Source: a virus. Taken from it: a stretch of DNA of 28,345 nucleotides. Below the pieces are notes generated by a model, which ran no database searches, had not been told where the DNA came from, and saw nothing but the letters and a program-made list of their open reading frames with translations. The DNA lies in IMG/VR virus record IMGVR_UViG_3300047297_000079, positions 1 to 28,345 of that record. One strand, written 5' to 3'. Shown here one piece after another: positions 3,089 to 26,887 of this stretch; the stretch's first letter is position 1; each line of letters opens with the position of its first letter. The position numbers and the translations under genes are program-made.

Positions 3089-3641
3089 TTTCGGAGGTAA
3101 TTGGTCTGACATCCAGTGCTTCGATTGGGAAATGCGAAACGGCATTCATTTGGACAATCCCTCTTTTATCAATCTCTATAACGACACAACCGAACTAATA
3201 ACAAGTGAAATAGAATTTAGTTCATTCACAGATTTAGGTGGTGGCGTTGGTGCATATTGTCAGCAGATGAAAAAGGTAGGAAAGAAAGTAACTTACTACG
3301 ACCTTAACCCACACCACTTTGAGTATGCACATGAAAGAAATGTAGCAGACTCTTATCATTTGGGTGACTTCACCACTATGATGATAAAAGGCGATTTAGT
3401 ATCTTGCATAGAGGTTGCTGAACACATTACAGATGAAAAGCTTATTCCTTTCTTCTCAAGGCTTGAATGCAACTATTTACACTTCAGTTCTACTCCTTTT
3501 TACACAAAGTTTGATGAAGATTGGGGACACATAAATATAAAGCCCAAAGCACATTGGATTGAATTTTTTAGTAAATTTGGATATACGTTACACAAGGAAA
3601 TAGAAAAGCCAACAAAATGGTCACTCCTCCTAAAGAAATAG
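3057..3641 (+). CDS. Class I SAM-dependent methyltransferase-like protein
   Basis: The 194-residue protein has the core of a Rossmann-fold methyltransferase. Motif I is DLGGGVGAYC (residues 59-68), followed by an acidic motif II region (TYYDLNP, 79-85). The post-motif strand is DLVSCIEVAEHI (113-124), in which EVAEH is typical of small-molecule or sugar methyltransferases. Near the end HINIKPKAHWIEFF resembles the C-terminal part of the same group. It lacks the DPPY/NPPY motif of adenine or N4-cytosine DNA methylases, so DNA base methylation is less likely. The substrate is unknown; glycan or capsular modification would fit the phage's glycosyltransferase. ATG 3057 lies within the previous gene. 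Confidence 0.72.
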   Translation: MNNQKEEGVNSFGGNWSDIQCFDWEMRNGIHLDNPSFINLYNDTTELITSEIEFSSFTDLGGGVGAYCQQMKKVGKKVTYYDLNPHHFEYAHERNVADSYHLGDFTTMMIKGDLVSCIEVAEHITDEKLIPFFSRLECNYLHFSSTPFYTKFDEDWGHINIKPKAHWIEFFSKFGYTLHKEIEKPTKWSLLLKK

Positions 3642-5856: not shown

Positions 5857-7044
5857 ATGCAGATAAACTACAAGCGACCATATTTGACCACATATCAAAA
5901 GGCAATCCTTGATAGTCCTGCACGTTATACAATTACTGCTGCCTCAACCAAAACAGGTAAAACTGCATCTCACATTATTTGGCTATTTGAACAAGCTTTA
6001 ACGCTAAAAGAAAACCAAGCGGTTTGGTGGGTTGCTCCTGTATACCAACAAGCGGAGATAGCATTCCGAAGGATGAAGGCTCAAGTCAACGAAAAAAACT
6101 TCTTTCACTCAAATGAATCTAAACTCGTTCTGACAACTCCTTTAGGCTCACGGATAGAATTTAAGTCAGCAGAAAAGCCTGACAATTTATACGGAGATGA
6201 TGTCTACGCTGCTGTGTTTGACGAAGCATCCAGAGCAAGAGAAGATTCCTGGTATGCACTACGCTCAACGCTAACTGCAACTCAAGGCAAGTGCAAACTA
6301 ATCGGTAACGTAAAAGGTAAAAAGAATTGGTTTTACAAATTAGGAGAGAGAGCCAAAGCAGGAGAGCCAAACCACGAGTATTTTAAAATCACAGCTTACG
6401 ATGCAGCTAAAGAAGGGATTATTGAACCTGAAGAGATAGAACAGGCAAAACGAGACCTGCCGTCACATATCTTCAAAGAATTGTACCTTGCTGAACCTGC
6501 TGACGACAATTCAAACCCTTTCGGGTACGATAACATCGAAAAGTGTATAATTCCTACCCTTTCGGGTACACCTGTAGCATACGGCATAGATTTAGCAAAG
6601 TACACGGATTGGACGGTTATTATCGGACTAAATGAACAAGGGCAAGTCTGCTACTTTGATAGGTTTCAAATGGATTGGAATCAGACATTGACAAAAATTG
6701 TCAAGACAATTGGAAATACTCCTGCTTATTGTGATAGTACTGGCGTTGGTGATCCGATAGTTGAGCAACTACAAAGAAACCATCCAAGAGTAAAAGGCTT
6801 TAAATTTACATCACAAAGCAAACAGCAACTTATCGAAGGCTTGGTTGTAGCAGTACAGCAGCAGCAGATATTTTTCCCTGACGGTAATATAACAGACGAA
6901 ATGCGTAACTTTGAATTTGAATATACCCGAACGGGAGTGAGATATACAGCACCACAAGGTTTACACGATGACTGCGTAATGTCTTTGGCTCTTGCTTGGG
7001 ATTGCAAACAACACAACAAAAAAGGAATATTTTTTTATGCTTAA
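5857..7044 (+). CDS. terL: Terminase large subunit
   Basis: This 395-residue protein is the DNA-packaging motor and nuclease. The ATPase domain has a Walker A-like loop, AASTKTGKT (residues 28-36), in the variant arrangement typical of large terminases. Walker B ends in AAVFDEAS (118-125) with D122 and E123. A coupling motif follows in KLIGNVKGK. The C-terminal RNase H-like nuclease has its acidic residues at GIDLAKYTDW (D245), YCDSTGVGD (D293) and LHDDCVMSLALAW (D371/D372). No frame break is seen, though it is on the short side for the family. A 14-base exact direct repeat lies inside the gene near 6515 and 6556. Confidence 0.95.
   Translation: MQINYKRPYLTTYQKAILDSPARYTITAASTKTGKTASHIIWLFEQALTLKENQAVWWVAPVYQQAEIAFRRMKAQVNEKNFFHSNESKLVLTTPLGSRIEFKSAEKPDNLYGDDVYAAVFDEASRAREDSWYALRSTLTATQGKCKLIGNVKGKKNWFYKLGERAKAGEPNHEYFKITAYDAAKEGIIEPEEIEQAKRDLPSHIFKELYLAEPADDNSNPFGYDNIEKCIIPTLSGTPVAYGIDLAKYTDWTVIIGLNEQGQVCYFDRFQMDWNQTLTKIVKTIGNTPAYCDSTGVGDPIVEQLQRNHPRVKGFKFTSQSKQQLIEGLVVAVQQQQIFFPDGNITDEMRNFEFEYTRTGVRYTAPQGLHDDCVMSLALAWDCKQHNKKGIFFYA
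6515..6569 (+). repeat. 14-base direct repeat pair inside terL
   Basis: ACCCTTTCGGGTAC occurs at 6515-6528 and again at 6556-6569. The offset of 41 bases is not a multiple of three, so the same bases are read in different frames (encoding parts of NPFGYD and TLSGTP). Each copy can form a small hairpin, ACCC-TTTC-GGGT. This could be a binding or packaging-related site or chance. Confidence 0.6.
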
Positions 7045-7582
7045 TTGGAACGACATAACAATAGAGAAACTGCAACTGATAAATAAAGTTGACACAAATA
7101 ACCCAATAGAACGCACGGCAGAGATTGTCAGCATTTTGATGGAGTTACCTTACGAACACGTTGAGACTTGGACCCTTGATGAATTGCGAAAAGTAGACCT
7201 AACCTTTTTAGAGAAGATTCCCAAGTCACCTTTGAAGTTTAAATTCAAGCATCAAGGGAAACGCTATAGATTAGTCAAGAACGCTCAAGAGATGAACGCT
7301 CATCATTTCATCGAACTGCAAGAGTTAAGTAAAAAGGATGTAATCGATGTGCTACCAGAGATTATTGGCTGCTTATCGTATCGTGTCAATATTTTTGGAC
7401 GCAGAGTAAAAGATGATTACGAATCAAAAGTAGAGGCATTTAAGACATTGCAATTTGTCAAGTTTTACAATTACGCTCTTTTTTTTTCGACTCTCTTTCC
7501 CAAGTTATTAGACGCTACCCTAACCTATTTGAAGGAGAAGGAGAAGGAACTGCAGACGCATTTGGATGGCTTACACTCATAG
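7037..7582 (+). CDS. Tail assembly chaperone (gpG-like), zero-frame product
   Basis: I choose ATG 7037, not the in-frame ATG at 6992 within terL, because it gives a normal N-terminus (MLNWNDITIEKLQLI) just upstream of the terL stop and avoids 15 residues that are only a shadow of terL. The product is 181 residues, mostly helical and charged. Near its end, at 7479-7487, is a run of nine T read CTT TTT TTT TCG. A -1 slip there enters a 92-codon open extension ending at 7764. A short chaperone plus a frameshifted longer form, just before tail genes and the tape measure, is the hallmark of siphovirus tail-assembly chaperones (lambda gpG/gpGT). The short product ends with a KEKEKE stretch. Sequence alone would not identify it; position and frameshift do. 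Confidence 0.75.
   Translation: MLNWNDITIEKLQLINKVDTNNPIERTAEIVSILMELPYEHVETWTLDELRKVDLTFLEKIPKSPLKFKFKHQGKRYRLVKNAQEMNAHHFIELQELSKKDVIDVLPEIIGCLSYRVNIFGRRVKDDYESKVEAFKTLQFVKFYNYALFFSTLFPKLLDATLTYLKEKEKELQTHLDGLHS
7480..7486 (+). promoter_or_regulatory. Predicted -1 ribosomal frameshift site, T TTT TTT
   Basis: The heptamer T TTT TTT fits the X XXY YYZ slippery pattern in register with the zero frame (CTT TTT TTT TCG). After slipping back one base, translation continues TTC GAC TCT in the overlapping frame, which is open from 7444 to the stop at 7762-7764. I did not find a clear stimulatory pseudoknot by eye. Confidence 0.7.
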
Positions 7583-7764
7583 ATAAGTTAGCAGGTGGTA
7601 GACGAGCAGAGTGGGATAAGATTCTTGAAATGCCATTGATTGAGTTTTTAAACACTTTAGCCTTTCATACGACAATCAAGAAAGAGCAGCAGAAGAGATT
7701 AGAGAAGGCAGCAGGGCAAGGATTTGAAGCTTATGTCTGTGCTTGTCTAAATGAGTTGATTTAG
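7486..7764 (+). CDS. Frameshift extension of the tail assembly chaperone (gpT-like)
   Basis: This segment fills the otherwise empty 215 bases before the next gene. It has no sensible start codon of its own near its beginning. Read as the -1 continuation of the chaperone it adds 92 residues, for a fusion of about 242. It contains a helical, soluble sequence (LTLIDKLAGGRRAEWDKIL, then TTIKKEQQKRLEKAAG) ending YVCACLNELI. In lambda-like phages the extended form binds the tape measure and the short form coats it. The frame also contains the same GAAGGA hexamer repeat as the zero frame, read here as Glu-Gly repeats. The coding nature is well supported by the long open frame; the ratio of products is unknown. 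Confidence 0.72.
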   Translation, partial: FDSLSQVIRRYPNLFEGEGEGTADAFGWLTLIDKLAGGRRAEWDKILEMPLIEFLNTLAFHTTIKKEQQKRLEKAAGQGFEAYVCACLNELI

Positions 7765-7796: not shown

Positions 7797-8972
7797 ATGG
7801 CTTTATCATTTAAGCATCAACCTGCTTCAGGAATTAGTTTTTTACCTGCATATAACGATAACATCTATGTAGTTAGTGAGAGTGCTTCAGGTACTTACTC
7901 GCAGTTTAATTTTAAGTTTAACACGGTCATCGTTGACTCAAACGCTTCTGGCAACATCACCATGTTAAAAGCACCCATCTACTACGGTAGCACAAACAAG
8001 GGAGTATTTAACATCAGCAGAGTTTTAGAAAACTATGTGACTTACGATTGGAACTACTCTGATAGTGCAGCAAGTGGCTGTACAAATTCAGTCTTTAGAT
8101 ACCAAGCGAGATTCGGATACGAGTATAGCACAGGTGCAACTTCTGACATCATCTTGTCTACAGGAGTAACTTCTGAATCAGCAAGAAAAGTCTGGAACGC
8201 TGCCTTATCTCCTGAAGAGTTTTTGACATTTGCAGAAGGTAATTATTTAATGGGTACAGGCTCATCTGCTAAATTCCTAACACACAACTTTAATAAACGC
8301 ATACACATTGATCAAAAAGATTGGCTCTACGCTCTTCACGCTGGTACTCTTCATCATTTGGATGTTGTATTTTCTCCAAGCGGTAGTACTACAATTAATG
8401 GAACGGCTCAAGACATTACTCGTTTCCCTATTGGTTCTAACATTCCAAACGGTATTCCTGTCGGCACGAAGTCATATACCATTACACCAAAGAACAGCAG
8501 CAATGCCACAATTGGAACTGCCTATACAATAACAATAGACGACAGATGCTCAAAATATGGTGATGTCGATTTATACTTCTTAAATAAATTAGGCGGTGTT
8601 GAGTCTTTCAGATTCTCAATGCTGAAAAGACAAAACGTCACATACAATCGGAAGTCTTACAAACGCAATCCATACACGCTGAACAACACAGCAGTAGAAT
8701 ATCAAACGAGCAGTCAAGACCACCACAACACGGACTACTATACTGACTCTTCTACACGCTTTATTTTGAACTCTGACTTTATCACAGAGTCTGAAGCGGA
8801 TTGGTTAAAAGAGTTGATAGGCTCTGCTTACGTTTGGATGTATGACGGATCATTAAAGGCGGTTAACATTAAAACAAGCGAATACGAGAGAAGATACCAC
8901 GTCAATGACAAGGTGTTCAATTTGACTTTAGAAGTAGAAGTTTCTTACAACGATAAATCACAACGCAGATGA
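7797..8972 (+). CDS. Tail structural protein (hypothetical), 391 residues
   Basis: The protein is beta-rich with many Ser, Thr, Asn and Tyr and no signal peptide or membrane segment, as expected for a virion protein. It lies directly between the tail chaperone and the large 918-residue tail protein, and its stop overlaps the next start (ATGA). Similar-sized proteins occupy this place in Bacteroidota siphophages, where the distal tail (Dit-like) protein would be expected, but I see no diagnostic motif. Start ATG 7797 follows a short AT-rich spacer; an ATG 4 bases upstream is out of frame. Confidence 0.7.
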   Translation: MALSFKHQPASGISFLPAYNDNIYVVSESASGTYSQFNFKFNTVIVDSNASGNITMLKAPIYYGSTNKGVFNISRVLENYVTYDWNYSDSAASGCTNSVFRYQARFGYEYSTGATSDIILSTGVTSESARKVWNAALSPEEFLTFAEGNYLMGTGSSAKFLTHNFNKRIHIDQKDWLYALHAGTLHHLDVVFSPSGSTTINGTAQDITRFPIGSNIPNGIPVGTKSYTITPKNSSNATIGTAYTITIDDRCSKYGDVDLYFLNKLGGVESFRFSMLKRQNVTYNRKSYKRNPYTLNNTAVEYQTSSQDHHNTDYYTDSSTRFILNSDFITESEADWLKELIGSAYVWMYDGSLKAVNIKTSEYERRYHVNDKVFNLTLEVEVSYNDKSQRR

Positions 8973-11725
8973 TAGAAATAATAGCTGAAGGCTATCAGTT
9001 AGAGGTAAACGATGATTTAAATCTACTCATTAATCGTGAAATTTCCGATTTAAGGGAACCAGAGAAACGGTCATCCGATTGGAGTAAAACTTTTACACTT
9101 CCAGGTACCAAAGTAAACAACAAGTTCTTTAACGCTTTCTTTGAAGTAGGTAAAGTTACCATTGGAGGCAACATTCAGCAGATTTCTGACTTTAAGGTAA
9201 ACAAGAAAGCCAATTGCACAATAATTGCACACGGCATGGACCAACTTGTGGGATTCTTGCGATTGACCGAAGTTGTTTTAACTGACACGAATCAGATTGA
9301 GTATAATTGCACGGTTCACGGAGAGACTGCTGACCTGTTCACTAACATAAAAGATAAGAAACTATCAGAGTTAGACTTTAGCGAATACAACCACGTTTTA
9401 AACAAGACCAACATTATTAATAGTTGGGATACTTCTATATGGTATGACGGTGCAAGTGGTACAACTTTTGAGTTGGGTAGAGGCTATGTCTATTCTCAAA
9501 TGTTGCCCAAAAGAGCAACTAAAGGATATAACTCTAAAGAGTGGAGAGTAGATGACCATATTCCTTGTTTATACGCCAAGACGGTAATAGACAAGATTTT
9601 CTCGGACGCAGGTTACAGATACACTTCTGACTCTTTCTTTAATTTAGAGCGTTTCAAACGGCTTATTATACCTTTTACTAATTTAGGCTTTGAGATAAGC
9701 GATGCAGATTTAGAAGATAGACTATTTCAGGCTCAAGTTACAGGTGCTACAACTTTAACTTCAACAGGCTCCAACGCATTAGGTACAACTATACCTGCTG
9801 CTAATGATTCAACAGGTGGCAACTTTGACAACGGTGGGAATTATAACACATCAAATTATAAGTTTACTGCTCCTGCATCTGCTCTCTACGAATTTTATGT
9901 TCATTTAGAAGGCTCCTTTAATTTTACTGCTTCTGATGGGTTAGCAGCTTATGCAAACTTCGCAGTTGTTGTAGATGGTAATTATGAGGCTTCATTACAA
10001 GCCATTACAGATATTAACTCTAACCAAGCGGTCTTTGATACTGATTGTTCGGTTGGAGTGCAACTGCTGTCAGGTCAAGAGGTAGAAATCAAGTTTGTAT
10101 CTTGTTGGGTTGAGACTTCCGCAGGAGGTGCTTTGGCATATCAGCAAACTCTAGATATTACACCTGAAACCTACATTTATAACAAGTGCCTTTCTAATGG
10201 TTACGCTTATGGATCTATTTTAGATTTTGCTTCTTTCTTTACAGGGGAATATACACAGACAGAGTTATTGGCAAACTTTGTCAAGATGTTCAATTTGTAC
10301 ATTGAGCCAACTCAAAATTCAAGAGTCTTAAGAATACAAACACGAGATAACTTCTATGTCGGTTCTGTTGATTGGTCTCAAAAATTGGACTACTCACAGC
10401 CTTACGAGATAGTGCCATACGGAGAGATTCAAGGCAATCCGTATAAATTCAGCTATAAGGAAGGTCAAGACGAAGAAAACAAGCAATACAAGACATACCA
10501 TAACCAAGTATATGGAGAAAGAACGTACACTATTGACAACGATTTCATCAAGAATGAGAAAAAGATAGATGTGACCTTTGTACCTACGTTGATGGTAGAA
10601 GACCAACAGCAAAGACGCTACTATTCTCAAGCGACAAACGAAGATAGTAAGATAGGTGAGTTAAGGGTTATGTATTACGGTGGTTTGGTAACTTGCCCAT
10701 TGTACAGATTGTACGAGTTTGGTTCACCTGGTATCAGCGACAACAGAACAACTTATCCTTTAACTCTTCATATCGATGATCCTGCAAATATGCAGTTTGA
10801 CCTTAATTTTGGGATGCCTCGTGAAGTTCAGACAAAATTGGCTCTTGAGTATAGCAATCAGAATTTAGTAAATACTTATTACTATCAGACTTTAACCGAA
10901 ATTACAGACAGAGATAGCAAGATATTTAGAGGCTTTTTTAGAATTACTCCTAAAGATTGGCAGACGATGAAGATGTCAAACCTTTATTTCTTCGAGGGTC
11001 AATATTGGAGACTTCAAAAGGTCAGCGATTATAACCCATTAGTTGACGATGTGTTTGAGTGTGAGTTTTTATTGGTTAAATACTATAAGCCTTTTACATC
11101 TACGAAAAAGAGTTTAGGGTTTAACGATGTCGTTGACACAGGTGGAGGAGCAGAGACTATTCCAGCAGGTTACAAGAGTAGCACTACAGGAGGCTCAACG
11201 AAAGGAGTGTATGTTGGCAACAGCACAGGCAGAGGAGGGCAAAACGTAGTAGTTGGTAATCTTAACAACGTAGGCGGTGATTACAATGTAGTTACATCTT
11301 CAGAAAGAGTTGTAATACCTGACAATTACGACAGAGTGACTGCAATTAGGTGCAATGAGTACAACGTGCCATACAATGATAGGCTTTACGTTGAAAACTA
11401 CCCTTGTTTGGGAAGTTGGATGTCAGGCGGAAAGGTTACAACTATAACTAATGCAGATTCTCCTTATTTAGCCACTTCTGAAGATTGGTTAATTTTATGT
11501 AATACAAGTGGAGGCTCTATTACGGTGACTCTTCCAACTCCAACGGCAGCAAATAGTGGTAAAATGTACACCATTAAAAAGACGGCATCAAATCACTCTA
11601 TAACCATTAACGCAGGAGATGGCTCTATTTTGATAGATGACTCAATATCTCACACACAGAACGCAAAAAATAGCTTTCATCAATTCGTGTCAGACGGCAC
11701 ACAATATTGGATAATAACAGAATAA
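8969..11725 (+). CDS. Large tail protein (Tal/baseplate-like) with C-terminal fibre-type domain
   Basis: At 918 residues this is the largest protein of the window. The N-terminus (MIEIIAEGYQLEVNDDLNLLINREISDL, followed by SSDWSKTFTLPGT) resembles the start of large Bacteroidota phage tail proteins. Residues 245-410 are beta-rich and Gly/Ser/Thr-rich, possibly an inserted surface domain. The last 86 residues (833-918: SEDWLILCNTSGGSITVTLP, then YTIKKT and ITINAGDGSILIDD) match a beta domain often seen at the ends of phage tail fibres. It likely forms the tail tip and contacts the host. Upstream and downstream tail genes support this. Exact role, such as hub versus tail-associated protein, is inferred. 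Confidence 0.75.
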   Translation: MIEIIAEGYQLEVNDDLNLLINREISDLREPEKRSSDWSKTFTLPGTKVNNKFFNAFFEVGKVTIGGNIQQISDFKVNKKANCTIIAHGMDQLVGFLRLTEVVLTDTNQIEYNCTVHGETADLFTNIKDKKLSELDFSEYNHVLNKTNIINSWDTSIWYDGASGTTFELGRGYVYSQMLPKRATKGYNSKEWRVDDHIPCLYAKTVIDKIFSDAGYRYTSDSFFNLERFKRLIIPFTNLGFEISDADLEDRLFQAQVTGATTLTSTGSNALGTTIPAANDSTGGNFDNGGNYNTSNYKFTAPASALYEFYVHLEGSFNFTASDGLAAYANFAVVVDGNYEASLQAITDINSNQAVFDTDCSVGVQLLSGQEVEIKFVSCWVETSAGGALAYQQTLDITPETYIYNKCLSNGYAYGSILDFASFFTGEYTQTELLANFVKMFNLYIEPTQNSRVLRIQTRDNFYVGSVDWSQKLDYSQPYEIVPYGEIQGNPYKFSYKEGQDEENKQYKTYHNQVYGERTYTIDNDFIKNEKKIDVTFVPTLMVEDQQQRRYYSQATNEDSKIGELRVMYYGGLVTCPLYRLYEFGSPGISDNRTTYPLTLHIDDPANMQFDLNFGMPREVQTKLALEYSNQNLVNTYYYQTLTEITDRDSKIFRGFFRITPKDWQTMKMSNLYFFEGQYWRLQKVSDYNPLVDDVFECEFLLVKYYKPFTSTKKSLGFNDVVDTGGGAETIPAGYKSSTTGGSTKGVYVGNSTGRGGQNVVVGNLNNVGGDYNVVTSSERVVIPDNYDRVTAIRCNEYNVPYNDRLYVENYPCLGSWMSGGKVTTITNADSPYLATSEDWLILCNTSGGSITVTLPTPTAANSGKMYTIKKTASNHSITINAGDGSILIDDSISHTQNAKNSFHQFVSDGTQYWIITE

Positions 11726-11728
11726 AAA

Positions 11729-13360
11729 ATGGCGATAGAAACTTCAGTTAATATAGACGTAAACGTAGACGGAACGGCTACGGTCAAACAGGCAGCTCAA
11801 GGCTTTGAAGATTTAGGAGATGCGGTTGCGAAAACCCAACGAGAGGTTGAGGCTCTTGCTCTGCAATACGGAATTAATGACCAGAGAACACAAGAGGCAA
11901 TAAAAAGAGCAGGTCAGTATAAAGGGCAACTTGAACAATTAGATCAAGCCATTGACGCTAATAAAGGAGGAGTTGACCAATTATTTAGAGGTGTACAAGG
12001 ACTTGCAGCAGGTTTTGAAATTGCAGCAGGTTCTTTAGCTATTTTTGGGAGCGAAAGTCAAGAACTTGAAAAGATACTTATAAAGGTTCAAGGTGCTATG
12101 GTTTTAGCACAAGGATTAAAAGACTTTAAAGAGTTTGGTGGTGCTATCAAAGGACTTGTTACATTAGTAGGAGAAAGATTAGTAGCAGCATTTGCAACTT
12201 TAAGAACGGCTCTTATTTCAAGTGGTATTGGTGCGGCAGTAGTCGGTGTAGGTTTATTAGTTGCAAACTTTTTAAGACTTCGTGAAGAAACTGCACAAGC
12301 AGCAGAACAACAAAAGAAGTACAATGATGAACTTGAAAAATTAAGAAAAGAACGTGAGCAATTACAAAAGGGAGATGAACAATACACAAGAGATGAATTA
12401 AAAAGGGTTTCAGAAAGACTTGCAGCAGGGCAAAGAGAACTTAAAGAAAAAGTAGCAGCACGAAATAAGTATATAAATGATTTAAGAGTATTAGGAGTTG
12501 AAGAAGCAGATTCTGATAGAAAAAGAGCAGAAGCCAATCTCAAAGAAATTGCCTTAAATAATGAAAGACTTGTAAACGAAAAATTAAAACTTACAAATAA
12601 AGTTGCTGAACTTGACAAACAAGCAGCAGAAAAAGCGAAAGCACAAAGAGAAGTAAACACTAAAACTGAAAAAGAAGAAATAGATACTTTTGGTGCATAC
12701 ATTCAAAGAGAAAGAGAAAAGCGTGAGCGTGAATTAAGGACTTTTTCAAGTAAGCAACTTGAAGAAACCGACATAATTGCACAAGCACAATTAGAACAAG
12801 TTACTATAACTTTAGATGCTATTCAGCAAAAGCAAAAAACTACGCTTGAACAAAGTCAATTATTTATAAAAGCCTATGGCAGAGAATTATTAGACACTTT
12901 TGTCAATGTCTTTGGTGCTATTTCTGCTCTTCAAACTGCATTTGCAGGTGAAGATGAATCAAGGCAAAGAAAGGCTTTTGAAACAAGAAAAAAACTTGCT
13001 TTAGTTCAAGCTACTATTTCAACTATTGAAGGTACTATTGCAGCTTTTAAGTCTGCTCAAGAGTCACCATTGACTGCGGTTTTACCTGCTTACCCTTTTA
13101 TTCAGGCAGCAGCAGCAGCAGCATACGGATTAGCACAGATTCAACAAATAAGAAATCAAACTTTCTCTGGCGGTCAAGTAAGTACACCAAGTCCTAATCA
13201 AGGGACAAATGTACCAAGCGTTCAAGTGCGTTCTTCTTCACTTCCGCAAACAGAAGACATTTTAGCCACAAATAGAAAAGTGTTTGTACTCGAAGGCGAC
13301 ATAACAAGAACACAACGAAGAGTAGCATCTAATCAATCAGTAAGCGTGTTAGGTGGTTAA
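11729..13360 (+). CDS. Tail tape measure protein
   Basis: The 543-residue protein begins with a sequence typical of tape measures (VNIDVNVDGTATVKQAAQGFEDL). It has a hydrophobic helix at about residues 161-182 (ALISSGIGAAVVGVGLLVAN) and a long, highly charged coiled coil at about 186-345 rich in Glu, Lys, Gln and Arg. An Ala-rich helix (FIQAAAAAAYGLAQIQQIR, near residues 456-474) precedes a low-complexity tail. Tape measures set tail length at roughly 1.5 angstrom per residue, so this one would allow a tail of up to about 80 nm, fairly short for a siphovirus. A (GCA)n tract encodes the Ala run. The gene starts 4 bases after the large tail protein gene. Confidence 0.85.
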   Translation: MAIETSVNIDVNVDGTATVKQAAQGFEDLGDAVAKTQREVEALALQYGINDQRTQEAIKRAGQYKGQLEQLDQAIDANKGGVDQLFRGVQGLAAGFEIAAGSLAIFGSESQELEKILIKVQGAMVLAQGLKDFKEFGGAIKGLVTLVGERLVAAFATLRTALISSGIGAAVVGVGLLVANFLRLREETAQAAEQQKKYNDELEKLRKEREQLQKGDEQYTRDELKRVSERLAAGQRELKEKVAARNKYINDLRVLGVEEADSDRKRAEANLKEIALNNERLVNEKLKLTNKVAELDKQAAEKAKAQREVNTKTEKEEIDTFGAYIQREREKRERELRTFSSKQLEETDIIAQAQLEQVTITLDAIQQKQKTTLEQSQLFIKAYGRELLDTFVNVFGAISALQTAFAGEDESRQRKAFETRKKLALVQATISTIEGTIAAFKSAQESPLTAVLPAYPFIQAAAAAAYGLAQIQQIRNQTFSGGQVSTPSPNQGTNVPSVQVRSSSLPQTEDILATNRKVFVLEGDITRTQRRVASNQSVSVLGG

Positions 13361-13399: not shown

Positions 13400-14299
13400 A
13401 TGGAATTACCCGTTTACAAACTTGTTATAAATCCAGATGACGAAACAGGAGTAGAATTTGTATCTCTTGTGACCAACCCTGCAATAGAAAGATACTTTCA
13501 ATATTTTGACAAGCAACTATTTTTTAACGACTACCCAAAAGCAGCATCACAAAACGCACAGAGAGGAATAAACCTAAATGAGGCAGTAGGTAATGAATGT
13601 GCTACGTTGGTGGGAAAGAATAGAGCAAGGCAGTTAGTTGCTAACGAGAATCTCTCTATTGAGACAATCAAACGTACTTACTCTTATTTGTCAAGAGCAA
13701 AAGAATACTATAACCCACAAGACACTAAAGCGTGTGGTACCATTTCTTATCTTTTATGGGGTGGAGAAGAAATGTTGAGATGGACTGAACGCAAATTAGA
13801 AGAGTTGGAGTTAAGCAAAGCAAGAAAAGCACGTTTTGAGATTCAGAACGAAGAAAAGAGAATCATCTCTGGAGCTGCAATGATTGCGGATTTACCTATC
13901 TACCGTTATGACGAAATCAGAGGCGAATACTATGTAGTGTTTGATAAAGAAACAATCTTTGAAATTGCAAAGAAGTGGGCCAGAGGCGACAAGTACGATG
14001 CAGTTAATATCCATCACGACAAAGCAGTAAAAGGACTATCGCTATTTGAGTCTTTTATTGTTGACAGAGAAAGAGGTATAATGCCGCCAAAAGGTTACGA
14101 AGAAGTTGCTGACGGATCATGGTTCTTGTCTTACATAGTAAACGATGATGAAATATGGGCAAGAGTAAAAGAGGGCGAGTTTAAAGGCTTTTCAGTTGAG
14201 GGAATGTTTGACTTTCAAGAGTCCACAGAAGATAAAATCGCTAATGCTATGGTCAGCAAATTAAAACGCATCCTTGAGAAATGGGACGGTAAAAATTGA
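13400..14299 (+). CDS. XkdF-like prohead protease with an inserted helical domain
   Basis: The 299-residue protein starts with a strand region (LPVYKLVINPDDETGVEFVSLVTNPAIE) and resumes at about residue 150 with IISGAAMIADLPIYRYDE, IHHDKAV (H205/H206) and FKGFSVEGMF (S265). This order fits the XkdF-type putative serine protease family, with a His and a Ser as candidate catalytic residues. Between them, residues 43-137 form a separate domain (YPKAASQNAQRGINLNEA ... GKNRARQLVANENLSIETI ... CGTISYLLWGGEEMLRW) also seen attached to other phage proteins. The protease would mature the capsid and remove scaffold; the next two genes, scaffold-like and capsid, support that. The inserted domain's role is unknown. 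Confidence 0.8.
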   Translation: MELPVYKLVINPDDETGVEFVSLVTNPAIERYFQYFDKQLFFNDYPKAASQNAQRGINLNEAVGNECATLVGKNRARQLVANENLSIETIKRTYSYLSRAKEYYNPQDTKACGTISYLLWGGEEMLRWTERKLEELELSKARKARFEIQNEEKRIISGAAMIADLPIYRYDEIRGEYYVVFDKETIFEIAKKWARGDKYDAVNIHHDKAVKGLSLFESFIVDRERGIMPPKGYEEVADGSWFLSYIVNDDEIWARVKEGEFKGFSVEGMFDFQESTEDKIANAMVSKLKRILEKWDGKN

Positions 14300-14893: not shown

Positions 14894-15829
14894 ATGGCAT
14901 TTAACGTATCAGCATTAGCTAATTACACCAACGAGCAGTCTACAGAGTTAGTACTTAAGTCTTTGTTTGGTGGCAAGACCGCAGCAGTTTTACAAGCAGC
15001 AGGTCAAGTTCAAGTAGGTGTTAAGTCTGCGGAGGCTTTGAACATCTTGACTACTTCAGTATTCCTACAAGCTGACGGTTGTGGGTACAACCCAAGTGGA
15101 ACTACTACTTTCACACAGCGTACTATCACAGTAGGTGCAATGAAAGTTGAAGAGACTATGTGTCCAAAGACTTTGGAAGCAAAGTGGATGCAAACTCAAA
15201 TCGCTCCAGGTTCTGCAACTGAACTTCCTTTTGAAGAGCAAATCGGTAGAGACAAAGCAAACAACATCGCTAAATTGATTGAGGTTGCTATGTGGCAAGG
15301 TGATACTGCTACTTCTAACACTAACCCTAATACTAACCGTTTTGACGGATTTGTAAAAATCATCGATGCTGCTTCTGCTTCAACCGTAGCAGGTAACACT
15401 TCTTCTGCTACTGCAATCACTATTGCTAACGTAGAAGATTTGATTGACAATATGTACGCAGTAGTTCCTGCTGACATTTCAGATGCTGATGACTTGGTTC
15501 TTTGGGTAGGTATTGACACTTACAAGAAGTATACTACTGCTCTTCGCAATAGCAACTTGTTTCACTACGCTGCTGAAAGCGAAGGAATGGAAATTACTAT
15601 TCCTGCAACTAACATCAAGATGATTGCTGTAGGTGGTTTGAACGGTACTAACCGTATGTACTTGGGTAAATTGAGTAACTTCTACATGGGTACTGACCTT
15701 GCAAACGAGTACGAAAACTACCAAATCTTCTACTCTCGTGATAACGATGAAGTTCGTTTCCGTGCTGCATTGAAGACAGGTGTTCAGATTGCATTCCCTG
15801 ACCAAATCGTTCAGTTCAAATTAGCTTAA
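14894..15829 (+). CDS. Major capsid protein
   Basis: This 311-residue protein has the alternating alpha/beta pattern of an HK97-fold capsid subunit: a helical N-terminus (TNEQSTELVLKSLFGGKTAAVL), a central beta core, and an end rich in beta strands (VRFRAALKTGVQIAFPDQIV) that resembles the C-termini of Bacteroidota phage capsid proteins. No long N-terminal delta domain is present, consistent with a separate scaffold gene just upstream. Codon use differs from its neighbours, with far more CGT arginine, AAC, ATC and TTC, as expected for the most highly expressed gene. The start follows the scaffold stop by 3 bases. Confidence 0.88.
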   Translation: MAFNVSALANYTNEQSTELVLKSLFGGKTAAVLQAAGQVQVGVKSAEALNILTTSVFLQADGCGYNPSGTTTFTQRTITVGAMKVEETMCPKTLEAKWMQTQIAPGSATELPFEEQIGRDKANNIAKLIEVAMWQGDTATSNTNPNTNRFDGFVKIIDAASASTVAGNTSSATAITIANVEDLIDNMYAVVPADISDADDLVLWVGIDTYKKYTTALRNSNLFHYAAESEGMEITIPATNIKMIAVGGLNGTNRMYLGKLSNFYMGTDLANEYENYQIFYSRDNDEVRFRAALKTGVQIAFPDQIVQFKLA

Positions 15830-15840
15830 TTTCATAGAAT

Positions 15841-16347
15841 ATGAGCTGCTCTCTAACTTCGGGATTCGCATTAGACTGTAAAGATTCAGTAGGAGGCGTA
15901 AAAGCCATCCACTTGATTAACTTTGCAGCAACAGGGTTTACCGTTAGTGGTGGAGAGGTTACAGCAACCACCATCGCTTCTGGCAACGTATATACTTACG
16001 ATATGCCTAAAGGTGTGGGTTCTATGACTACCACTACTAACGTATCTCAAGAAAACGGAACTGTATTTAACCAAACTGACGTAGTTGCACGTTTACGCAA
16101 ATTGGCTACCACCAAGCGTAACGAGTTGAAACTTCTCGCTCAAAACAGAGTGTTTTGTGTAGTAGAAGACAACAACTCAATCTATTGGTTAGTTGGGAAA
16201 GAGTACGGATGTGACATCACAGCGATGACGCAAGAGACAGGAACTGCAATGGGTGATAACTACGGCTACAATTTCACTTTAAGTGCGATTGAGGCTGAAG
16301 CACCTTACAAATTGCAAACTGCTGTTGTGACTGCTTTGGGTATCTAA
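15841..16347 (+). CDS. Conserved structural protein after capsid gene
   Basis: The 168-residue protein starts MSCSLTSGFALDCKDSVGG and contains SQENGTVFNQTDVVARLRKL and CVVEDNNSIYWLVGKEYG. This pattern recurs in a Bacteroidota phage protein family encoded directly after the capsid gene. It is beta-rich, with no signal peptide. A role as tail tube or neck component would fit because no other tube candidate is obvious, but this is inference. Its codon use resembles the capsid gene, suggesting high expression. A strong terminator follows 19 bases downstream. Confidence 0.7.
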   Translation: MSCSLTSGFALDCKDSVGGVKAIHLINFAATGFTVSGGEVTATTIASGNVYTYDMPKGVGSMTTTTNVSQENGTVFNQTDVVARLRKLATTKRNELKLLAQNRVFCVVEDNNSIYWLVGKEYGCDITAMTQETGTAMGDNYGYNFTLSAIEAEAPYKLQTAVVTALGI

Positions 16348-19895: not shown

Positions 19896-21650
19896 ATGAC
19901 TGAATTTTTAAGAATAAACTTTGCTGAAAGTAAAATCCCTTTATTCAAGGAGAATAAGGCAAAGAACTATATAACCTACGGAGCAGACAATCGCTACCCA
20001 AATATGCTTATTGACTTGTTCAATAGCTCACCAAAACACGGTGCTATCGTAACACAAAAGGCAGCGTACATAGCAGGGGACAAGACAGAGGTAGTAGCAA
20101 ACAACACAGAGCAACTAACTATAGCCAATGATAGACTTGCTTCCATTAACGCTTACGAGTCATTTGATGACGTTAAATCTAAAATCGCAGCGGACCTTGA
20201 ACTTTTTGACGGCTTCGCTTTGGAAGTTATTTGGAATAAGGCGAAAACCTCCGTAGCTGAAATATATCACTTGCCTTTTCAAAATGTTCGTCACTCACTT
20301 GACGGTCACTATTGGTACGCTGAAGATTGGAGCGATAGAAAAGTAGAGCCTATTTATTACTATTGTTGGAATCCATTGACTAGAGAAAATAAGCAACTTT
20401 ATTACTTTAAACTATACAAAGCAGGTCAAGGCGAATATCCTACTGCACCGTATCAGTCTGCTCTTAAATATATAGAGATTGACACGGAGATAGCAAACTT
20501 CCATTTAAACTCAATTAAGAGTGGTTTCTCTGCACAAACCTTACTTCAGTTATTCAAAGGCATTCCAACTCCTGAAGAAGCTCGTCAAACGATGAGACGC
20601 TTTAAGGAGAATTTTAGCGGAACGGATAATGCTGGTTCAATCATCATTCAGTTTAATGATCCAAACGAAACTCCGTCAATCGTCAACAACCTAACACCAT
20701 CCGACTTTGATAAGCAGTTTGACATACTAAATCAGACGGTGCAGCAAGAGATTTTAATGGCTCATAGAGTAACTTCTCCGATGTTATTTGGAATCAAGAC
20801 AGAAGGTCAGTTGGGCGGCAGAAGTGAAATCATTGAAGCTTATGAGGCTTTTCAAACGTCTTACATTGAGCCAAGACAAAATCAAATGGATAGAGCGTTA
20901 ACTTCTATCTTTAAATACATTACTCCTGTTAAACTCATAACCAAGAATAAACCTCCTATTGGACTTGACTACGTTCTTTTATTTGAAAAGGGCATTATCA
21001 CTCAAGCAGAGGCAAGAAAAGAAATGGGAATGACCGAGACCGTACAATTCTCAAAACAGAGTTGCTCTTGTGAAAACCCTTTTAATTGGGATGATGACAG
21101 AGATTTAGAAGTATTTTCAAAATATGGCGAATCTGCTGAAATGTTTGAGTCAGTACCAATGCAGTTCGCATCTGCTCTTGAGTTGATTATTTTGCAATTC
21201 TTACAAGGTAATAACCAACTTACTTTACAAGACCTTGCTAACAACATTAAAGAGGATCCTGCGTTAATCACTGAAGCGGTTGATAGAATGATTAATGACG
21301 GAAGAATAGTTCCTAACGATGCTGTTTTAAATATATCAGAAGAAGGTAGAACAGATTTGAGAAGGTCAGGACTTGACACGGAGTTGGTTGTGCGTTACAC
21401 ATACGAGAAAGCACCTGGTATCAGCGGTGGCGATGTTATCCCAACTTCAAGAGATTTTTGCAGAAGGCTAATCGCTTTAAATCGTGTATACTCAAGAGAA
21501 GACATTGACCAAATCTCAACTATTGTAGGTTATGACGCTTGGAAAAGAAGAGGAGGTTGGATGACCGTTAAAGGCTCTTCTCCTGCTGTTCACGTTCCTT
21601 ATTGCAGACATATTTGGAAATCACAACTATTAAGAAGAAAAAATGGCTAA
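19896..21650 (+). CDS. Portal protein with extra C-terminal domains
   Basis: The 584-residue protein begins like Bacteroidota phage portals (LFKENKAKNYITYGADNRYPNMLIDLFNSS, split around residue 26; KHGAIVTQKAAYIAGD) and keeps the portal pattern of a long helical core (HRVTSPMLFGIKTEGQLGGRSEI). About residues 430-485 form a winged-helix-like region (NNQLTLQDLANNIKEDP, then MINDGRIVP). Residues 512-584 (TSRDFCRRLIALNRVYSREDI ... PYCRHIWKSQLLRR, with C and H) match a C-terminal motif often found at the end of phage Mu F-like head-morphogenesis proteins. It would form the dodecameric DNA gateway. The terminase is 13 kb upstream, an unusual distance. Confidence 0.85.
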   Translation: MTEFLRINFAESKIPLFKENKAKNYITYGADNRYPNMLIDLFNSSPKHGAIVTQKAAYIAGDKTEVVANNTEQLTIANDRLASINAYESFDDVKSKIAADLELFDGFALEVIWNKAKTSVAEIYHLPFQNVRHSLDGHYWYAEDWSDRKVEPIYYYCWNPLTRENKQLYYFKLYKAGQGEYPTAPYQSALKYIEIDTEIANFHLNSIKSGFSAQTLLQLFKGIPTPEEARQTMRRFKENFSGTDNAGSIIIQFNDPNETPSIVNNLTPSDFDKQFDILNQTVQQEILMAHRVTSPMLFGIKTEGQLGGRSEIIEAYEAFQTSYIEPRQNQMDRALTSIFKYITPVKLITKNKPPIGLDYVLLFEKGIITQAEARKEMGMTETVQFSKQSCSCENPFNWDDDRDLEVFSKYGESAEMFESVPMQFASALELIILQFLQGNNQLTLQDLANNIKEDPALITEAVDRMINDGRIVPNDAVLNISEEGRTDLRRSGLDTELVVRYTYEKAPGISGGDVIPTSRDFCRRLIALNRVYSREDIDQISTIVGYDAWKRRGGWMTVKGSSPAVHVPYCRHIWKSQLLRRKNG

Positions 21651-24890: not shown

Positions 24891-25408
24891 AGACCGTTGA
24901 TGATATAGGCAAAGAGTGGAGTAGTTACAATCCACCATCTGATGACGGCATTTTGCGTATCATTCAGAATTGGGGCAATGAGCTAATTTCCAACTTTCGT
25001 TCTAATCTTCAAAAAAACAAATCTCTTGCATCTCGTAACCTTTACCAACAGATTGAACCTGAAATAACAGGAACAAAAACAGGATATAATCTGAAAATAC
25101 AAATGTTGGACTATTGGAAATGGGTAGAAAACGGTAGACCACCAACACGAACCAACTCGCCAAGTAATCCAACTTTACAAAAATCTATTGAAGAGTGGAT
25201 ACTTAATAAAGGAATTCAAGTCAGAACATCCAAGAATCAAGATAGACGTACAGCAACTAAATCTCTTGCTTACGTTATTGCAAGAAAGATTCACAGAAAC
25301 GGCACAAAGGCAAGACCCTTTATATCACCTGCACTCACAAGAGAAATGCAGCAAGTTCTTTCTGACAGGATAGGCAAATACATCGCAGACACTTTAGCAG
25401 GGGAGTAA
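24887..25408 (+). CDS. HK97 gp10-like neck/tail-completion protein
   Basis: The 173-residue protein has the features of gp10-like proteins: helical start (GILRIIQNWGNELISNFRSNL), the central LDYWKWVENGRPPT and IARKIHRNGTKARPFISPAL near residues 133-152. These sites correspond to the Y-x-x-(Y/W)-V-E-x-G and R-P-F-(L/I)-x-P-A motifs of the family. It probably joins head to tail. Its place behind the endolysin, by ATGA overlap, and 9.6 kb from the capsid gene, is odd. A terminator hairpin includes its stop codon. Confidence 0.75.
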   Translation: MKTVDDIGKEWSSYNPPSDDGILRIIQNWGNELISNFRSNLQKNKSLASRNLYQQIEPEITGTKTGYNLKIQMLDYWKWVENGRPPTRTNSPSNPTLQKSIEEWILNKGIQVRTSKNQDRRTATKSLAYVIARKIHRNGTKARPFISPALTREMQQVLSDRIGKYIADTLAGE

Positions 25409-25423
25409 CATCCCCTTTTTTTT
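25400..25423 (+). terminator. Rho-independent terminator overlapping the stop of the neck gene
   Basis: GGGGA (25400-25404), a loop GTAACA holding the TAA stop codon, and TCCCC (25411-25415) form a GC-rich stem with a run of eight T after it. It separates the late block from the early HTH-led block. Confidence 0.9.
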
Positions 25424-25443
25424 GCTCTTATTTGTAAAATATT

Positions 25444-25473
25444 TTTGTAATATTAAAAATAATTGTATATTTG
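25444..25473 (+). promoter_or_regulatory. Bacteroidota-type promoter upstream of the HTH gene
   Basis: TTG at 25445-25447 and TATATTTG at 25466-25473 (match to TAnnTTTG), 18 bases apart. The start of transcription would fall near 25478, on or next to the ATG, so the mRNA may be leaderless. The sequence TTTTGYAATATTAAAAA is shared with the promoter at 27500. Confidence 0.75.
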
Positions 25474-25477
25474 TGGT

Positions 25478-25657
25478 ATGGAACTGAAAGAAATCATTGC
25501 AGTAATTAAGCTTCACAAGAAGCACGGCTTAATCAAGACCGTAAGCAAAAAGACAGGTGTATCAATGCCAACCGTTAAAAAGTATTTAAACGGTGATGTA
25601 ATTAACCCTAAAGCGATGCTTGTAATCAAAACAGCATTAGAGGAGGTGAACAAATGA
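25478..25657 (+). CDS. Small helix-turn-helix regulator, 59 residues
   Basis: ATG 25478 is chosen rather than TTG 25463 because it lies directly after the promoter's -7 box. The helix-turn-helix occupies residues 18-38 (LIKTVSKKTGVSMPTVKKYL), as in Cro-like or resolvase-type small regulators. It is the first gene after the terminator and is probably an early control protein. The protein is basic and has no other domain. Its stop overlaps the next gene by ATGA. Confidence 0.75.
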   Translation: MELKEIIAVIKLHKKHGLIKTVSKKTGVSMPTVKKYLNGDVINPKAMLVIKTALEEVNK

Positions 25658-25926
25658 AAGCAAGTGTATTTGTAGAAGTACTTGACGAAACTATCGTAGT
25701 GACTTACGATGATTTTATATCTGTTGAGTTTGATAGGTTTGAAATTCAAGACCTTATCCCAAAAAAACTATTTCACGAGTTTGCAGACCACATAGAAAAA
25801 ATTGAAGTAGACGAATATCCAGGATTTGATTATATGTTCAACTGCGATAATGTTGATCCTACTGTCGTTTACGATGCAATTTTAGAACTTACCCAATTCG
25901 GAATAAACCCTATAAAACTATTATGA
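25654..25926 (+). CDS. Hypothetical acidic protein
   Basis: The 90-residue protein is strongly acidic (VEVLDETIVVTYDDFISVEFD, EKIEVDEYPGFDYMFNCD) with helix-strand alternation and no membrane segment. Overlaps of 4 bases on both sides place it in the HTH-ERF operon. Acidic small proteins of this kind can mimic DNA, but nothing here shows that. Family not recognised. Confidence 0.65.
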   Translation: MKASVFVEVLDETIVVTYDDFISVEFDRFEIQDLIPKKLFHEFADHIEKIEVDEYPGFDYMFNCDNVDPTVVYDAILELTQFGINPIKLL

Positions 25927-26459
25927 TAACCAGCGAAAAAATTACCAACTTGACGAAGGCTATGTTTAGCTTTCAGACAAAAGTGAGCAGCGTTAAAAAG
26001 ACTGCAAAGAACCCACATTTTAAAAGTAGTTATGCCGACCTCACCAGCATCCTTGAAACAATAAATCCAATCTTGCAAGAGTGCGGTCTATTGGTTACAC
26101 AGCATCCAAATAACGAGTCGCTTGTAACTATTGTTTACCACGCAGAGAGTGGCGAATGGATGAAGAGTGAGCAGATATTGAGAATGAAAGATATCAATAA
26201 CCCACAGGCTCAAGGTAGTGCGATTACTTACGCAAGACGCTATGCTTTAGCATCTATTTTCAATCTTAACCAAGAAGATGATGACGGCAACGCTGCAAGT
26301 GGTCACAAAGTTACTGCTGTAAAAGAGCAACTTAACCCAAAGCACCCAATGTGGAGCAAGGCTCTTGAACACTTGTCAAAAGGTGGTAGTGTATCTGACA
26401 TTGAGGCAAAGTACGTTATAACTGACGAAGTAAAAGTATTATTGACGGCTACTAAATGA
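25923..26459 (+). CDS. erf: ERF-family single-strand annealing protein
   Basis: The 178-residue protein carries the ERF core: AKNPHFKSSYADLTSILETI (28-47), PILQECGLLV (49-58), then PQAQGSAITYARRYALASIF (94-113) and LNQEDDDGN (115-123). ERF proteins form rings that anneal complementary single strands for phage recombination and genome end repair. The C-terminal 40 residues are short and variable. With the YqaJ-type exonuclease 0.4 kb downstream it makes a two-component recombination pair, as in lambda Redβ/exo. Its stop is followed by an AT-rich spacer of 29 bases. Confidence 0.93.
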   Translation: MITSEKITNLTKAMFSFQTKVSSVKKTAKNPHFKSSYADLTSILETINPILQECGLLVTQHPNNESLVTIVYHAESGEWMKSEQILRMKDINNPQAQGSAITYARRYALASIFNLNQEDDDGNAASGHKVTAVKEQLNPKHPMWSKALEHLSKGGSVSDIEAKYVITDEVKVLLTATK

Positions 26460-26488
26460 ATGTTGAATAATAATTATAAACTAAAATA

Positions 26489-26887
26489 ATGCCTTGCCAA
26501 AGTACATTACCACCGTTTGATTCTCCTTACAGAGAATACCCAGAAAAGCCACATGAAATAAATTGGTTAGAAGGAACTATAAAAGATAACTATCAAGAAA
26601 AATACCCTATACAAATGGAAGAAATAAAACAACTATCAATGCTTAAAAAAGAAAACAACTTTTTAGAGGCGGCACTATGTGCAATACTAACGGAGTTGGA
26701 AAATAGAAAAGCATACAATCCAGTAATAAATGCAGCAAGTAAAAACGGTATGATTGACATAGATTCATTTTGGGAAAAGCATAAGAATAAAGACGAGCAA
26801 AGATTGTCTAATGAGTTAAGTAAATTCTCAGAACACGAAAAAGAAATACTTAAAAGATTATTAAATGATGCAAATAACAATAACTAA
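26489..26887 (+). CDS. Hypothetical protein between the recombination genes
   Basis: The 132-residue protein has a disordered N-terminus and a helical C-terminal half (FLEAALCAILTELENRK, FWEKHKNKDEQRLSNELSKF, KEILKRLL). The helical half resembles a frequent phage protein segment, FLEAALCAxLxxLE... then (D/E)xxxLxxxLxKxS, of unknown function. It is encoded between ERF and the exonuclease and overlaps the latter by 23 bases. An accessory role in recombination is inferred from place. Confidence 0.7.
   Translation: MPCQSTLPPFDSPYREYPEKPHEINWLEGTIKDNYQEKYPIQMEEIKQLSMLKKENNFLEAALCAILTELENRKAYNPVINAASKNGMIDIDSFWEKHKNKDEQRLSNELSKFSEHEKEILKRLLNDANNNN

Follow-up and report, generated by a model that had tools for sequence, protein, structure and literature searches.

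We found that a small gene in the tail module of a virus genome record has the layout of a -1 frameshift gene, and the conservation of this layout over more than 290 distinct relatives confirmed the observation at the level of sequence comparison. The best explanation is probably a -1 ribosomal frameshift that would yield a pair of tail assembly chaperone proteins. The DNA analyzed, referred to here as the window, comprises the 28,345 bases of one virus record in IMG/VR. According to the proposed mechanism, one gene would give rise to two proteins with their first 150 residues in common. Most translation would keep the zero frame and produce a 181-residue form, and some decoding events would slip one base back at a T TTT TTT heptamer, where both Phe tRNAs would re-pair in the -1 frame. 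The slip would lead to a 242-residue form with a 92-residue domain in place of the last 31 residues.

Reanalysis of the window reproduced the layout described in the initial annotation, including the in-register heptamer within nine T's, which was recovered to the base. The -1 frame, open from 7444, overlaps the zero frame by 139 bases and fills the space up to the next tail gene. As claimed, it has no useful start, since no ATG, GTG, or TTG occurs before an ATG at 7630 that would leave 44 residues only. The predicted fusion comes to 242 residues (150 + 92), would read ALFF|FDSL across its junction, and has zero-frame residues 151–181 replaced; the slip site lies far upstream of the zero-frame stop (93 nt). 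The ATG of the gene and the end of the terminase ORF overlap by 8 nt, and a run of seven T's (7030–7036) lies immediately 5′ of this ATG within the terminase ORF end. The only other A/T homopolymer of at least nine in the window is a nine-A run at 1552–1560, in the ORF at 1475–1960. A triplicate of GAAGGA in the overlap (7531–7548) does read KEKEKE in the zero frame and EGEGEG in the -1 frame; it was conserved in the nearest relatives only and was dropped as a feature. The coordinates are collected in Table 1.

Table 1. Features of the putative frameshift gene and of its neighbors in the window.
Feature	Coordinates	Strand	Basis or remark
Terminase large subunit	5857..7044	+	PHROG 2, E 2e-38
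Zero-frame ORF, predicted short product (gpG-like), 181 aa	7037..7582	+	ATG 7037, TAG 7580-7582
Predicted fusion CDS, 242 aa	7037..7764	+	join(7037..7486,7486..7764); 150 + 92 aa
Nine-T run holding the slip site	7479..7487	+	read from sequence
Slippery heptamer T TTT TTT	7480..7486	+	zero-frame register, codons CTT TTT TTT TCG
Predicted -1 C-terminal domain (gpT-like), 92 aa, read after the shift	7486..7764	+	synonymous-site pattern
Dual-coded overlap, slip site to zero-frame stop, 93 nt	7487..7579	+	both frames constrained
Tail protein, homologue of P12024S 25201-26625	7797..8972	+	blastp 1.5e-6
Large protein, probably tail tip; place of P12024S 26802-29066	8969..11725	+	position only
Probable tape measure protein	11729..13360	+	coiled coil, one hydrophobic segment; place of similar-looking P12024S 30239-32299
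Major capsid protein	14894..15829	+	homologous to P12024S
Probable tail tube protein	15841..16347	+	blastp 1e-19 to P12024S 2149-2694

Among the neighboring genes, the one that probably encodes the tail tip protein gave no informative family match, and the product of the gene after that of the major capsid protein is assigned as the probable tube protein from its fold. The order of the head genes was unusual: the protease and capsid genes (13400–14299 and 14894–15829) come after the tail module and the portal gene (19896–21650) further on. This protease-capsid-portal order matches that of phage P12024S in a circular sense.

We determined how often the features of the gene could arise by chance. 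When the gene was shuffled among synonymous codons, some in-register heptamer was present in 62% of the shuffles and an open -1 overlap in 27%. The features of the window are therefore weak by themselves, and the case rests on the comparison with relatives.

Close relatives, down to about 38% identity, were obtained from scans of IMG/VR, and profile searches of their frames located both halves at 275 loci, which represent 175 distinct regions. The two frames stood in the -1 relation in all 175. No relative found by sequence had the region in a single frame, and the -1 frame was present wherever the contig was long enough; either kind of homologue would have counted against the initial annotation. 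T TTT TTT was found at the slip site in 153 of the 175 distinct relatives, within a run of nine T's in 125 and of ten in 28. A further 19 distinct sequences (for example L026), referred to as the T6 clade, carry T TTT TTC in a run of six T's; the run is interrupted on both sides, yet the exact heptamer stays in register. One or the other heptamer was thus in register in 172 of the 175. The three remaining sequences (L278, L280, and L281, near position 3450) read GTT TTT TCT TTG, which leaves the non-canonical T TTT TCT, a slip site that is mismatched or fits in the P site only; their -1 layout is unbroken.

When 121 distinct sequences were aligned, the third base of codons 148 and 149 was T in every one, even though codon 148 encodes Leu, Val, or Ser across the alignment. 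Third bases were free just upstream, and the variation fell exactly at the slip site. Past the zero-frame stop, single-base codon differences were synonymous in 78.5% of cases when read in the -1 frame, 17.7% in the zero frame, and 5.9% in the +1 frame, and within the overlap change was slowed at all three codon positions. Taken together, the frame relation, the conservation of the slip site, and the synonymous pattern exclude both a sequencing error and an unused frame.

The comparison could be extended to a distant group of phages. A tblastn search with each half against a phage collection gave no match, and a homologue in the cultured Nonlabens phage P12024S was reached only through a fold search. 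In this search the AlphaFold model of the zero-frame product (pLDDT 86.6; the two halves were modelled separately) matched a P12024S protein with an E value of 2e-7 and a TM score of 0.61. Profile comparison by hhalign then related the window to the distant group in both the zero-frame halves (E 2.9e-10) and the -1 halves (E 5.6e-10), and the FF of the slip site was aligned between the window and the P12024S group. At the end of P12024S gene 38 a T TTT TTT lies in a T9 run, and the -1 frame contains gene 39. The two genomes have a gene order in common (terminase, gene 38, gene 39, tail genes, probable tape measure gene), and P12024S also has homologous capsid, portal, protease, tail, and probable tube proteins. 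P12024S and P12024L, which are Nonlabens/Persicivirga phages of the genus Inhavirus, thus have homologous halves (genes 38/39 and 40/41), the slip site, and the gene order of the window at about 15% identity. In both, the halves are annotated as two hypothetical proteins and the frameshift is unrecognised (RefSeq; PHROG 32199 and PHROG 38404).

In IMG/VR, 43 of 43 distinct relatives of P12024S had T TTT TTT, always in a run of at least nine T's, and all 77 distinct members of a further set of relatives of the -1 domain had a canonical poly-T heptamer in such a run. A first scan of bacterial genomes gave no relative. The nine matches of a second scan each carry a canonical poly-T heptamer within nine or more T's and all come from Bacteroidota (Winogradskyella, Flavobacterium, other Flavobacteriaceae, Galbibacter, and Dysgonomonas). 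The distant group thus includes Bacteroidota prophages, and integrated relatives are present in Galbibacter pacificus CAA-3 and Dysgonomonas sp. 25. The comparison of homologues proposed in the initial annotation thus shows that the heptamer is kept as far as distant relatives and cultured isolates. One motif of the -1 domain, searched alone, matched at least 600 stretches. A weak fold relative (E 0.007) was seen in Flavobacterium phage 6H (L192, minus strand, 10352–10927), where T TTT TTC lies near the zero-frame end with the -1 stop immediately after it, and a longer -1 frame occurs just downstream. Four viral proteins of 240–258 residues in BFVD (A0A516L611, A0A6J5N3F3, A0A6J5SVK3, and A0A385E737) matched the models of both halves. 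These may be relatives with both parts in one frame, as judged from model matches that were weak for the -1 half.

Frameshifted chaperone genes usually shift near their end, so that the fusion is an extended protein. This layout was not found here. The distance from the slip site to the zero-frame stop is 93 nt in the window, 72–132 nt among the close relatives counted, and 21–258 nt in the Inhavirus-like group (median 168), in which some -1 frames end just 2–12 codons beyond the zero-frame stop. Because the slip site lies far 5′ of the stop, the shift would swap the C-terminal region rather than extend it. The term gpGT-type in the initial annotation is apt in that the pair would work like gpG and gpGT, and it understates this difference. 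In one sequence (L388, near position 1618) the zero-frame stop comes 18 nt past the slip site, against about 165 nt in its neighbors, in a lambda-like arrangement. We also analyzed whether the zero frame of the overlap is constrained. In the Inhavirus-like group, zero-frame differences were synonymous in 29.6% of cases within the overlap and in 17.9% past the stop, showing constraint on the zero frame too, and when the -1 protein was resampled with synonymous codons the zero frame was open by chance in about 6% of the resamplings. These substitution patterns indicate that the overlap codes in both frames, the -1 frame being under the stronger constraint.

The gene most likely encodes a tail assembly chaperone, judging from its position, its synteny with P12024S, and its two-product recoding. 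By analogy with gpG and gpGT of lambda, the part common to both products would coat the tape measure protein and the -1 domain would recruit the tail tube subunit; lambda provides the precedent for the product ratio and for the roles of such a pair (PMC5009743). Searches of Pfam, PHROGs, and NCBIfam gave no significant match naming the protein, and a fold search of the PDB gave no match. In BFVD, the annotated tail assembly chaperones matched weakly (E 0.013 with a TM score of 0.40, and E 0.037). A profile match of the -1 domain to a designed PPR protein among the PDB sequences had no stretch passing alone and was discarded as an artefact. No family search supported the name and the fold support was weak, and we therefore treat the chaperone identity claimed in the initial annotation as a strong inference and not as demonstrated. 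It is also conceivable, though rather improbable, that the frameshift is real and the pair serves as something other than a chaperone, for example another virion assembly factor. The absence of a family match and the weak fold match would fit such a role, and so would the place of the gene, which is in the tail module, not adjacent to the probable tape measure gene and three genes ahead of it. Against this, P12024S has the gene at the same position in its tail cluster, and a small tail-module gene that yields two products by -1 recoding is the hallmark of the chaperone gene in lambda, P2, and HK97.

The frames and the conserved heptamer support the programmed -1 frameshift of the initial annotation, and the T9 run leaves room for slippage during transcription. 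Two other explanations do away with a shift altogether. A T9 run is a classic place for sequencing errors, and an error of sequencing or assembly there could have split one gene. This has a negligible chance of being correct, given that the same layout recurs in 175 distinct IMG/VR relatives, in P12024S and P12024L, and in nine bacterial genome records, and that both frames are constrained in the overlap. It is likewise very improbable that the -1 half is translated separately from a start of its own. Gene 39 of P12024S is annotated in this way, from an ATG at the zero-frame stop, and PHROG 38404 spans only the stretch from that ATG; however, conservation of the -1 frame sets in at the slip site, far 5′ of any start, and in the window this frame offers no ATG, GTG, or TTG ahead of the one at 7630. 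The alternative to be taken more seriously, unlikely as we consider it, is that RNA polymerase inserts one extra U, or skips two, at the nine- or ten-T run, so that a fraction of the mRNA encodes the fusion in a single frame; the heptamer would then be a bystander, unless the two mechanisms operate jointly. Nine or more consecutive T's are present in 153 of the 175 members of the close family, as well as in the 43 relatives of P12024S, the further set of 77, and the bacterial genome matches, even where the flanking codons differ. In many bacteria, selection against slippage acts at a homopolymer length of nine (PMC1088944). Over the 397 loci fetched (2.19 Mb, many of them overlapping), we counted 389 T runs of at least nine, as against 31 such A runs and 44 T runs of exactly eight.

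A stimulatory RNA structure downstream of the slip site is common in -1 ribosomal frameshifting and is not obligatory. None was found when the folding check suggested in the initial annotation was carried out, which also favors slippage by RNA polymerase: folding z-scores for the 50, 80, and 110 nt downstream averaged about zero in 25 relatives, and a consensus fold of this region showed no compensatory or covarying pairs. Rfam and tRNA scans were empty. On the other hand, the same frame layout exists with only six T's in 22 distinct sequences (the T6 clade and the three with T TTT TCT), and the flanking T's are largely accounted for by amino acid constraint in two frames. The seventh base of the heptamer, which is free in both frames, is T in 43 of 43 relatives of P12024S, although codon usage alone predicts mostly T there. 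Ribosomal slippage explains why the heptamer is conserved in register, in the T6 clade as well. From these comparisons the ribosome is likely the main slipping agent. Homologous dnaX genes are reportedly able to switch between the ribosomal and the transcriptional mechanism (Larsen et al., 2000). Tentatively, the run of nine or more T's could be a frame-choice site, widespread in this family of Bacteroidota phages, at which RNA polymerase and ribosome both slip. Some lineages would then have almost all of the -1 domain overprinted on a functional zero-frame tail, such that about 250 nt encode two alternative C-terminal domains of similar length, and the T6 clade, with its T TTT TTC, would have reverted to slippage by the ribosome only.

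That phage tail assembly genes conserve a -1 frameshift has been established knowledge since the work of Xu et al. (2004), which PMC3711429 and PMC5009743 cite. Our search of openly accessible literature gave no report of a frameshift in this Bacteroidota phage group, which does not prove that none exists. What is new here is the family, the swap architecture in which a long stretch codes twice, and the question whether ribosome or RNA polymerase slips. These results extend the chaperone frameshift to a large and mostly uncultured group of Bacteroidota phages, in which it has gone unannotated even in RefSeq isolates, with the halves divided over two PHROGs. The long dual-coded overlap further suggests that not every such gene follows the long/short product layout of lambda, since here one C-terminal region would be exchanged for another between the products. 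In addition, transcriptional and ribosomal slippage can be compared naturally between the T9 and T6 clades.

Among known systems, lambda G/GT resembles the window gene in being a small tail-module gene with a late -1 shift that adds an extra C-terminal domain to the fusion, and its low-efficiency two-product logic is the one proposed here (PMC5009743). The lambda slip site, GGGAAAG, is 15 nt ahead of the G stop, and the shift appends a 137-codon extension past that stop, whereas in the window a poly-T heptamer precedes the stop by 93 nt (by as much as 258 nt in relatives) and the C-terminus would be swapped; no sequence similarity was detected between the window gene and lambda G/GT. P2 E/E+E′ is likewise a tail gene with an annotated -1 shift, and its slip site, T TTT TTG, is of the poly-T type. 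The annotated site in P2 (19685) is about 20 nt from the E stop, and E lies directly upstream of the tape measure gene. The HK97 gp13/gp14 pair is also a -1 fusion, annotated as a join, with a -1 open frame overlap that, unlike that of the window, is at most 52 nt. Finally, dnaX of Thermus, tssM, and IS elements resemble the window in having a homopolymer of at least nine as the recoding site, in their case by transcriptional slippage (PMC1088944, PMC4256274). Such genes need no in-register heptamer, whereas the window gene has one.
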